Shown piece by piece: positions 12,373 to 28,902 of a DNA stretch of 35,968 bases. Positions within the stretch are counted from its first letter, which is position 1. Each line of letters begins with the position of its first letter. Where the stretch lies: assembly GCA_024275145.1 (NCBI GenBank), contig JAJRZR010000012.1, positions 1 to 35,968 on the forward strand. Direction: 5' to 3'. The stretch is from Deltaproteobacteria bacterium. Lineage in GTDB: Bacteria; Desulfobacterota; Dissulfuribacteria; Dissulfuribacterales; QOAL01. Position numbers and translations under genes: made by a program. A model generated the notes under the pieces. That model was not told the DNA's origin. It worked only from the letters and a program-made list of their open reading frames with translations, and made no database searches.

Positions 12373-12374
12373 GG

Positions 12375-12734
<360 letters not shown>

Positions 12735-17532: not shown

Positions 17533-17907
<375 letters not shown>

Positions 17908-18070
17908 CCCGGCACCCAATCCAGGCCAGGCATGATCACGGCCCGCGTATTTTCGGCAATACCCTACTGCCTCTCTGGACGCTATGAAGAAGACACGGCC
18001 ATCGATAGAGACTCTATCCTTTAGGTAAGCAGTGGGGCGATCTGGATTCGCCACTGAATCTTTTTCTTTA

Positions 18071-25167: not shown

Positions 25168-26796
25168 TTACCCGAGGATTGCCTTCAGGTCCTCTTCGGG
25201 AGTCGTTATGGGTTGAACGTTATAGTTCTTCACCAGCACATCCAGGACGTTTGGCGTGATGAAGGCCGGAAGGCTGGGTCCCAGCCTGATGTTCTTGACT
25301 CCAAGGGCGAAGAGTGTCAGGAGGATGGCCACGGCCTTCTGCTCATACCATGAAAGTATCATGGATAGCGGCAGGTCATTGATGCCACAATTGAATGCCT
25401 CTGCCAGGGCCGAGGCGATTTTGATGGCCGAATAGGCATCGTTACACTGTCCGATGTCAATCAATCTCGGGATTCCGTCGATGTCTCCAAGCTTCATGTC
25501 AAAAAACCTGAATTTTCCGCAGGCGAGGGTCAGCACTACACAGTCTTTTGGTACCATTTCGACAAATTTCGTATAGTAGTTGCGCCCTGGTTTGGCGCCG
25601 TCGCAGCCGGCAACCAGGAAGAAATGACGTATTTTGCCGCCCTTTACCGCCTCAATTATCTTGTCGGCCACGGAAAGTACGGCATTCCTGGCAAATCCCA
25701 CGGTCACAGAGCCCTTGTCGGTGTCCTCTGTATAACCCTCCATTTCCAATGCCTTTTCGATAACCGGGGTGAAATCCTTGTCGGCAATGTGTGCTACGCC
25801 AGGCCAACCTACAAGGCCGGTGGTGAAGATGCGATCCTTGTATGATTCGTGAGGCTTCTGGATGCAGTTCGTCGTCATGACGATAGGGCCAGGGAATTCC
25901 CTGAATTCCCTGGTCTGATTCTGCCAGGCAGTGCCAAAGTGGCCATAAAAATGCGGATATTTCTTGAGGCCTGGATATCCATGGCACGGAAGCATTTCGC
26001 CGTGGGTATAGACATTGATGCCCTTGCCTTCTGTCTGTTTAAGGATGGTTTCAAGGTCCTTGAGGACGTGGCCGGATACCACTATGGCCTTACCCTTCTT
26101 CGACCCCAGCGGCACTTCAGTAGGTACCGGGTGTCCATAGGTGCCCGTGTTCCCTGCATCGAGGATCTCCATTGCCCTCAGGTTGGTCTCTCCGCACTTG
26201 AGAACGAGGCCCAGCAGGTCTTCGAGCGTGTTTTCCTTGTTCAGGGTGGCGGCCATGCCTTCGTGTATGAAATCGTATACCCCTTGATCTTCCTGACCAA
26301 GTATCTGCGCATGATCCGCATAGGCGCACACCCCCTTCAGGCCGTAGACCAGGGTCTCTTTCAGAGACAGGATGTCTGGGTTCGGTTCTGCGTCAAACCT
26401 TATCCCGTGGGCCTCGCCCTGTTTTACCAGCTCCTCCTTGGCAGATGCGGGTTCGAAGGAAGCGGCTTCGCCAAGGTCGCTAGTGTCACCACCGGCGGCC
26501 GTTACCTTTGCCTTGAGGGCCTCTCGGAGATCAACGCACCTGCGGATGAGTTCCACAAAACGGTCGGCGTCGAAATCCACGTTTGTCAGGGTAGAAAAGA
26601 CCGCCTCACACGTGAAGACATCCACGTCTCTACTTGTGACGCCAACCCTGCGTCCCTCGGTCGCCACCTGTGACAGCCCTTTTACGGCATAGATCAGAAG
26701 ATCCTGAAGTGCCGCTACATCCGGCTGCTTTCCACATACACCGATGGTGGTACAACCCTTTCCTTTAGCTGTCTGTTCACACTGAAAACAAAACAT
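25168..26796 (-). CDS. hcp: Hybrid cluster protein (Hcp, hydroxylamine/NO reductase)
   Basis: Hcp holds a cubane [4Fe-4S] cluster and a hybrid 4Fe-2S-2O cluster; it reduces hydroxylamine in vitro and is thought to remove nitric oxide or act in nitrosative stress in vivo. The 542-residue protein begins MFCFQCEQTAKGKGC with Cys3, Cys6, Cys15 and Cys21 (C-x2-C-x8-C-x5-C), the class-I pattern of strict anaerobes. Hybrid-cluster segments HGEMLPCHGYPGL, TTNCIQKP and FLVAGCDGAKPGR follow. I start at ATG 26796, with AAGGAGA upstream; a longer start at 26844 would overlap the preceding gene. It is the middle gene of a three-gene operon. Confidence 0.97.
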   Translation of the reverse strand: MFCFQCEQTAKGKGCTTIGVCGKQPDVAALQDLLIYAVKGLSQVATEGRRVGVTSRDVDVFTCEAVFSTLTNVDFDADRFVELIRRCVDLREALKAKVTAAGGDTSDLGEAASFEPASAKEELVKQGEAHGIRFDAEPNPDILSLKETLVYGLKGVCAYADHAQILGQEDQGVYDFIHEGMAATLNKENTLEDLLGLVLKCGETNLRAMEILDAGNTGTYGHPVPTEVPLGSKKGKAIVVSGHVLKDLETILKQTEGKGINVYTHGEMLPCHGYPGLKKYPHFYGHFGTAWQNQTREFREFPGPIVMTTNCIQKPHESYKDRIFTTGLVGWPGVAHIADKDFTPVIEKALEMEGYTEDTDKGSVTVGFARNAVLSVADKIIEAVKGGKIRHFFLVAGCDGAKPGRNYYTKFVEMVPKDCVVLTLACGKFRFFDMKLGDIDGIPRLIDIGQCNDAYSAIKIASALAEAFNCGINDLPLSMILSWYEQKAVAILLTLFALGVKNIRLGPSLPAFITPNVLDVLVKNYNVQPITTPEEDLKAILG

Positions 26797-26840
26797 AGTT
26801 ACTCTCCTTGGTTTTTGTTTGATATCTAATGATCTGTCGA

Positions 26841-27638
26841 TCATGGTTGAAGGCTGGATACGATTGGTTCCAAGCCTGTCCTGTCAAGTACTTCACCGAA
26901 ACGTTCTTCCCCGTGGCAGTTGGCCACGAAATGGTCTACACAATGCCCGACAAGCTCCACTACATCGTTACTTGAATGGATACCGGCAATTTCCGTTCCC
27001 AGGCTTGGATGCCTGCCCAGCCTGCCGCCGAGCAAGACCCTGTAACCGCTCATTTCCTCTTCCAGTGCACCTGTTGGACAATTTTTGATACATTGGCCAC
27101 ACATCAGGCATTTTGCGGAATCGATTGTCGGTCCATTCCCCGAAGAAAGATCTATGGCGCCTTCTTTACAGATGGCTACGCACTGGCCACAATCTGTGCA
27201 TGCATCCCCTATGACCCGTGGCCTGCATGCCCCGATTATTCCAATATCGGCGATTTGTGGCCTGGAACAGGCGTTGGGGCAATCTGAGATGGCGATACGG
27301 AATTCATTGTGCAGTTTGAGGGGGCCGTGGACGGTATTACTAAGGAAGCCCTTTAGGTCCTTAGGCCTGAGGACAGCTTCCAATCTATCAACGAGGTGTT
27401 CGCCACGAACCGCCCTGTTTGGGCACCCGCCGAGGCCAAAACAGGTTTCAATTCGATATCCGCGGACCTCTTCCTCCATGTTTGTCAGGTAACGCTGCTG
27501 TACTGTCCTAACGTGTTCTATCTTCACCTTCGCCGAACCTAAATGCCTAGCCTCGTCCTCTATACGGCGTCTAACCCTCTTGCGCACAAAAAAGGGTATC
27601 CTCGATATAGCCCTTTCCGCCTTGTCATCCCAGATCAT
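26841..27638 (-). CDS. Small siroheme-type sulfite/nitrite reductase-like protein with two ferredoxin clusters
   Basis: The 265-residue protein has three parts. Residues 1-31 (MIWDDKAERAISRIPFFVRK) resemble the PCP_red-type helix found in some reductases. Residues 40-140 are a NIR/SIR half-module with the siroheme-[4Fe-4S] ligands Cys66-x5-Cys72 and Cys120-x3-Cys124 (CFGLGGC, CPNAC). Residues 147-187 are a 2[4Fe-4S] ferredoxin, CTDCGQCVAIC and CLMCGQCIKNC. Full reductases have two such half-modules, so this is a minimal form, like the low-molecular-weight sulfite reductase-type proteins of sulfur anaerobes. It heads the operon with hcp 44 bases downstream, suggesting joint reduction of nitrite, hydroxylamine or NO; that is inferred. 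Confidence 0.85.
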   Translation of the reverse strand: MIWDDKAERAISRIPFFVRKRVRRRIEDEARHLGSAKVKIEHVRTVQQRYLTNMEEEVRGYRIETCFGLGGCPNRAVRGEHLVDRLEAVLRPKDLKGFLSNTVHGPLKLHNEFRIAISDCPNACSRPQIADIGIIGACRPRVIGDACTDCGQCVAICKEGAIDLSSGNGPTIDSAKCLMCGQCIKNCPTGALEEEMSGYRVLLGGRLGRHPSLGTEIAGIHSSNDVVELVGHCVDHFVANCHGEERFGEVLDRTGLEPIVSSLQP

Positions 27639-27744
27639 ATGTGTCCAACCCCTAGGTCTTTTTAATCGTAGCCGATCACAGGGTTATCGTTGAAGACCGG
27701 TAAAATCCTGGTCCGCGTTAATCATTTATGTTGAATCCGATAAT

Positions 27745-27900
27745 CCCAAATTTTCATGGGGTCCATTCCCTTGAAGTCACAAGGGTTCGTAACTTTTACC
27801 GAATCTGCCGCCTTGCCATGGATTGGGGCACCCAAAAAGTTTTTATCTTGGCCCCCTTCGCCTCACATCTTTAGCAAATTTGCGAACTGTATTGTTCGGG
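27745..27900 (-). repeat. R1 MITE-like repeat, copy D (156 bp, short form)
   Basis: It starts CCCAAATTTTCATGG and ends GCGAACTGTATTGTTCGGG, with ATAAT on both sides (27740-27744 and 27901-27905). The body TTGAAGTCACAAGGG...TTTTACCGAATCTGC aligns with the right two-thirds of copy B, but the block between the 17-base arms is absent. It is more diverged than A or B. It occupies much of the gap between gspC and the hcp operon. Confidence 0.78.
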
Positions 27901-27926
27901 ATAATAGATCATTTGAGATTCAAACG

Positions 27927-27944
27927 CCTTGACTTAAGTCAAGG
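27927..27944. promoter_or_regulatory. HcpR/FNR-type palindromic operator
   Basis: CCTTGACTTAAGTCAAGG is a perfect 18-base palindrome containing TTGAC-N4-GTCAA, the CRP/FNR-family form associated with HcpR control of hcp in sulfate-reducing bacteria. It lies about 290 bases upstream of the siroheme-protein start and 83 bases beyond the gspC stop. R1 copy D lies between it and the operon it would serve. The regulator gene is not in the window. The remaining bases of the 27639-28029 gap show nothing else. Confidence 0.72.
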
Positions 27945-28029
27945 AGGGAATGATTTCCTCAAAGATACATCCAAGTCCTGCCAGCGGGTCGCAGGGCGTT
28001 ACCATCAGGCTGGCCTTGCCACGCGAAGG

Positions 28030-28902
28030 TTAGTCGTCGGCAGGCCGTTGCTGCTCCCTGGAGCGTTGCAACAGTTTTAAAAATGGATTCGATATCGGAG
28101 CGGGTGATCCCTTCACCGAATTGTTTTGCGTATTGCCGCCGAAAAATCCCGGGATGGAACGAGACGTAGTACTGCCTTTTGTCGAGTGGGATCGGTCAGG
28201 TTGTATCCCTGGCGTCGTAGCTCTGGTTCGCGATCTGGAGACAGGTGGTGCCACCCCATGATAGAATTTGGGCCGGATCACCACGGGTTTACGTTTTTGA
28301 GATGGATTGGTTGGGCGGGCCTTGGCGGAGGAGGTGGATGTAGCAGCAGGAACAGGGATGGGATTGACCGGTTGCGGTGTCTGGATTACAACCGGGGCAA
28401 TGGCCTTTCTTTCCTTTTTTTCCGAACCAAATACACGAAGAAAGGCATCCTTGTCCCCAGAGACCAGCTTGATACCACTTGAAGAGATGGAGACCACCTT
28501 CCAGCCATCTACGAGGTCCCCGATACTCAGGACCCGGTAACGTGGTTTTTTGTAGCGTCCCCGTCTGGGTGTTTCATCGGGTTCCATGGCCCTGAGATAG
28601 GCCCTGCGGTTATTACCGGCAACTATGATGCCATATACCTGATAGCGTTTCTTGAGGTCATTGCTACTGTTCGATTGATTGCCAAGGTCTTCCTGCCTGT
28701 TTTTCCCTCGTTCCGGGTCGAAGGGGTCCTTTGCTACTATGGTGTTGTAGGGGCCAAGGTCTATGGTCTTGGGTGCTCCTGCAGGATAGGCCTTTACAGG
28801 TGGCATTACACATAGGGAGGTGCCGAGGATCGCCAGGAAGAGATGGCTGAGTACGGATCGGTTGAAGGAGACCGGATGGTAATCAGTCCTGCCTGTGTGC
28901 AT
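28030..28902 (-). CDS. gspC: Type II secretion GspC/PilP-like inner-membrane protein
   Basis: GspC links the inner-membrane platform to the secretin. This 290-residue protein has an N-terminal hydrophobic segment (VLSHLFLAILGTSLCVMPP), a DPFDPERG motif and an HR-domain-like beta region (RYQVYGIIVAGNNRRAYLRA ... YRVLSIGDLVDGWKVVSI). The C-terminal half (about 170-290) is rich in Pro, Ser and Arg and looks disordered, with no PDZ domain. It overlaps the end of gspD by 20 bases and is last in the operon, whereas gspC is usually first. Assignment as GspC rests on the HR-like region and context; a PilP-type relative is possible. Confidence 0.7.
   Translation of the reverse strand: MHTGRTDYHPVSFNRSVLSHLFLAILGTSLCVMPPVKAYPAGAPKTIDLGPYNTIVAKDPFDPERGKNRQEDLGNQSNSSNDLKKRYQVYGIIVAGNNRRAYLRAMEPDETPRRGRYKKPRYRVLSIGDLVDGWKVVSISSSGIKLVSGDKDAFLRVFGSEKKERKAIAPVVIQTPQPVNPIPVPAATSTSSAKARPTNPSQKRKPVVIRPKFYHGVAPPVSRSRTRATTPGIQPDRSHSTKGSTTSRSIPGFFGGNTQNNSVKGSPAPISNPFLKLLQRSREQQRPADD

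Follow-up and report, generated by a model that had tools for sequence, protein, structure and literature searches.

In delta-proteobacteria, the motif of the HcpR1 regulator, wyTTGACnnnnGTCAArw, is found 5' of hcp and ferredoxin genes (Rodionov 2004, PMC545781; Rodionov 2005, PMC1274295), and HcpR1 proteins reading TTGAC half-sites are predicted to carry Ser or Pro at position 180 and Glu at position 181 of the recognition helix (PMC1274295). MITEs can also be found at the start of transcription units, as in Neisseria gonorrhoeae, where a Correia element lies downstream of the mtrCDE promoter and an IHF site within this MITE matters (PMC10969869). The locus described here associates a known kind of operator with a known kind of element, and their arrangement is instructive. 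It belongs to a window of 35,968 nt (the whole stretch of DNA analysed; JAJRZR010000012.1, positions 1 to 35,968) from a 2.65 Mb Deltaproteobacteria genome assembled in 120 contigs.

The operon is located on the minus strand. Its first gene (26841..27638) encodes a siroheme/4Fe-4S protein of 265 aa with PCP_red, NIR_SIR and 4Fe-4S domains (Pfam), with an 80% identical orthologue in a sister species of the same genus (G015). The second gene, hcp (25168..26844; PF03063, E = 4.5e-176; PRK05290, 842.9 bits), encodes a hybrid cluster protein/hydroxylamine reductase and overlaps the first gene by 4 bp at the stop codon of the latter. In the sister orthologue, the open frame extends by about 26 codons on the N-terminal side (L030:505-583), an extension that the gene of the window lacks. 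Elsewhere in the window, a 352-nt inverted pair (12373-12724 and 17558-17909; 73% complementary) covers ORFs near the two ammonium transporter genes, and may represent paralogous genes.

The gap upstream of the operon extends, on the minus strand, from the stop codon of the upstream gene (28030) to the ATG of the siroheme-protein gene (27638). It contains an 18-bp perfect palindrome, CCTTGACTTAAGTCAAGG (27927..27944), whose core TTGACTTAAGTCAA (27929-27942) is the sole TTGAC-N4-GTCAA site in the gap, and a 156-bp repeat, R1-D (27745..27900), which lies between the palindrome and the operon, as an earlier note on this DNA had described. The distance from the end of the palindrome to the ATG is 290 bp, in agreement with the approximate value in that note. 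Compared with the delta-proteobacterial HcpR1 motif, all 10 core positions matched and the inner y and r flanks were respected (C and G), whereas the outermost w positions were C and G and not A/T.

Exact TTGACN4GTCAA sites numbered three in the whole genome compared to one for a reversed-pattern control, with alike counts in other genomes. As this is close to the chance level, the count by itself is no proof, and it could even be taken to favor a fortuitous 10-base match. The promoters of relatives were gathered by searching orthologues of the first gene of the operon, and their comparison refuted this explanation, whose probability we regard as negligible. The sister species possessed TCTTGACTTAAGTCAAGG upstream of the orthologue, and a perfect palindrome was found 51-61 bp 5' of the orthologous start in 12 of the 17 other family genomes, so that, in the comparison of close relatives called for earlier, those lacking R1-D keep the palindrome. 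In a wider Desulfobacterota set (80 named loci, of which 77 had at least 150 bp upstream), the palindrome was perfect within 400 bp upstream at 36 of the 77 loci, compared to 0.01 expected by mononucleotide shuffling, and at least 9 of the 10 positions matched at 58. It is this conserved position upstream of orthologues that places the palindrome beyond chance, and its assignment as a predicted HcpR1/DNR-type operator is well supported.

A second site of the regulon type was present in the genome (L011:1501-1514), between a divergent pair formed by a NIR_SIR-domain gene and a 4Fe-4S ferredoxin gene, with a TATGAT hexamer at spacing 22 toward the ferredoxin gene; operator sites beside ferredoxin matches recur across the family. 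The third site of the genome, at pyrR, had no -10 hexamer at spacing 22 in either direction and was treated as a chance occurrence.

On the operon strand, a TATTAT hexamer (27901..27906) is located 22 bp from the operator core, and G015 possessed the same hexamer at the same spacing. Across 14 family promoters, the -10 score (match to TATAAT) peaked at spacing 22 (mean = 4.43 of 6, compared to 3.07 for the next-best among spacings of 15-30 bp), and the peak was again at 22 in the wider Desulfobacterota set; in the window, the assignment depends on a single hexamer. When a 14-bp FNR-type site is separated from the -10 hexamer by 22 bp, its centre falls at -41.5, the position of a class II activator. 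The best -35 box in the promoter matched only 2 of 6 positions, as expected for activator dependence. From this geometry, transcription would start at about 27894-27893 (minus strand), inside R1-D. This ancient and conserved class II HcpR1-type promoter of the siroheme-protein/hcp operon can be extended across Desulfobacterota.

Three clear CRP/FNR proteins are encoded in the genome. One of them (G000:C72:34263-34946; PF13545, 71.2 bits) had the recognition helix TIPETLSR, whose two specificity residues are Pro and Glu, matching the HcpR1 prediction; among relatives of solved structure, the NO sensor DNR is nearest to it. Its orthologues were detected in 16 of 19 family genomes (E < 1e-15), with an identical recognition helix in 15 of the 15 best orthologues, the protein of this genome being included in both counts. 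This DNR/HcpR1-type protein is a candidate reader of the palindrome, and the term HcpR-like operator used earlier agrees with the motif, its conserved position and this matching regulator. The site may instead be read by a DNR-, NnrR- or FNR-type factor that is not an HcpR1 orthologue, or the signal may differ from nitrosative stress, since HcpR1 groups with DNR and the half-sites of the two are almost identical (PMC1274295), since the candidate gene is not a neighbour of hcp, and since its product is not named by any curated HcpR model. We find this possible but unlikely, as the two remaining clear CRP/FNR proteins have different helices (VRVVVNR and VRVVINR), and as hcp and ferredoxin targets constitute the published HcpR core regulon (PMC545781).

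R1-D is a diverged member of the R1 family, which is large and dispersed in the genome (44 BLAST matches, and 127 matches to the end motif). R1 target duplications were exactly 5 bp long in 20 of 36 copies and never 3 or 4 bp, so that a 3-bp TNA duplication, also considered, fits less well; their second position was always T and their fourth always A, giving the form WTNAW. A decayed 1,672-bp IS1380-family element (C50:39637-41308; L231) has the same ends as R1 and carries a broken transposase gene matching NF033539 in two fragments (E = 1.1e-20 and 2.3e-8), the break explaining why these matches are under the curated cut-off. Given these common ends, R1 most likely consists of MITEs moved by a transposase of the IS1380 type, and the decayed element is its likely source. 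R1-D itself is a degraded, internally deleted copy with CCC...GGG ends (CCCAAATT at one and CCCGAACAATACAG at the other, degenerate past the first bases). Its alignment with full R1 copies covered 55 bp (E = 9e-6), its best near-full-length relative was 70% identical, and it was 20-30% diverged from other copies. No R1-D match was detected by blastn at the sister promoter. At the genome scale, six TATNAT hexamers were found at 74 R1 flanks compared to 4.15 expected, giving no clear enrichment for -10 boxes.

R1-D is bordered by two copies of its 5-bp target duplication, one on the gene side (ATAAT, 27740..27744), followed by the remnant of the original leader (27639..27739, minus strand) up to the start codon, and one on the promoter side (27901..27905; ATAAT on the plus strand, ATTAT on the minus strand). 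On the operon strand, the latter corresponds to positions 2-6 of the TATTAT hexamer, whose first T belongs to the original flank, and R1-D starts with the first base past the hexamer. As the duplicated ATTAT provides five of the six bases, the box would have been regenerated by the insertion. Excising the 156 bp and one 5-bp repeat leaves 129 bp between operator and start codon; the earlier estimate of about 130 bases was thus accurate, and the value is still above the family norm. The sister leader 3' of the -10 box was not alignable with that of the window and offered no clean base-for-base empty site.

We give a probability of about 0.8 to the following model. The siroheme-protein/hcp operon would be driven by a class II promoter that depends on an activator, with the palindrome as the operator read by the DNR/HcpR1-type CRP/FNR regulator. 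The target of R1-D would have been the ATTAT within the TATTAT -10 box, and duplication of this target would have rebuilt the box, so that operator, spacing and -10 survived. As the predicted start lies within R1-D, the leader of about 255 nt should begin in the element, which would supply roughly its first 150 nt as well as the discriminator and the start point, and the promoter would remain active and responsive to NO. The insertion thus most likely spared both operator and promoter and replaced the 5' end of the transcript; judging from the sequence, the nitrosative-stress switch probably still works, with only the mRNA start altered.

The earlier note had suggested that the insertion may have disconnected the operator or supplied a new promoter, and neither suggestion was supported. 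The relevant distance for the operator is that to the -10 box and not to the start codon, and it is unchanged, being identical in the R1-D-free sister. Concerning the second, R1-D was rejected as a promoter donor as no sigma-70-like site reached the threshold in 27600-28060, and the -10 box consists of the original flank and the duplicated target. A stronger version, in which the insertion broke control and left the palindrome as a relic, with only low expression of the operon or expression driven by a weak promoter inside the element, would fit the 290 bp to the start codon (compared to 51-61 bp in 12 family genomes) and the replacement of the discriminator and initial transcribed sequence. 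We consider it improbable, since R1-D has diverged and yet the operator, the -10 hexamer and the length of the spacer between them are all intact, which points to selection maintained after an old insertion; moreover, neither an internal sigma-70-like promoter nor a minus-strand terminator was found, and long leaders occur in other lineages too.

Other roles of R1-D in the leader were also considered. The sole terminator-like site was on the other strand, and none was found on the operon strand; no Rfam match was obtained in the window, and the predicted fold of the leader was no better than that of shuffled sequences (z = -0.63). Predicted Shine-Dalgarno accessibility was little altered (0.09 vs 0.14), and the masking attributable to R1-D was small and inside the range of shuffled elements. 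The start codon was predicted to be less open with the long leader (0.24 vs 0.68), and the 255-nt leader could, according to this folding model, lower translation.

Insertions in the same leader were observed in other lineages. In G015, a different dispersed repeat, AGCACCAAGGTGCGGGCTGCA (27 matches in its genome and none in that of the window), flanks the same promoter on both sides (L030:355-375 and 483-503), one copy being in the leader. The same leader carries a dispersed repeat of about 190 bp in Desulfobacteraceae 4484_190.2 (L144:3785-3975; five matches in that genome), as seen by comparison with CSMAG_2410 (L147), which is otherwise very similar. With only three lineages, these insertions are too few to claim a hotspot, and tolerance of leader insertions combined with selection on operator and -10 box explains them.

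The locus provides a clear case in which the distance to the start codon can mislead on operator function, an example of a transposon whose target duplication restores the very promoter element it struck, and a natural test of the effect of leader replacement on a stress operon. A general proposal, that IS1380 MITEs with WTNAW targets serve to swap leaders and in this case tune the nitrosative-stress response, is highly doubtful; if it held, their target would fit the TATNAT -10 box, the 5-bp duplication would rebuild it, and the promoter would survive while the gene acquires a new 5' UTR.

Among known systems, the Correia element at mtrCDE is likewise a MITE directly 3' of a promoter and within the transcribed leader, but it is not related to R1-D, and in its case an IHF site was shown to matter. 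With IS1380-family MITEs, R1 shares CCC...GGG ends matching an IS1380-type element and short AT-rich target duplications; it differs in that it duplicates 5 bp of the form WTNAW and that R1-D is a degraded, internally deleted copy. The closest system is the HcpR1 regulon of delta-proteobacteria (PMC545781; PMC1274295), with which the system described here has in common the operator type, the hcp and ferredoxin targets, the Pro/Glu recognition helix and the predicted activation. Two features set it apart from that regulon: hcp and the candidate regulator gene are not neighbours, and the MITE in the leader leaves 290 bp between operator and start codon.
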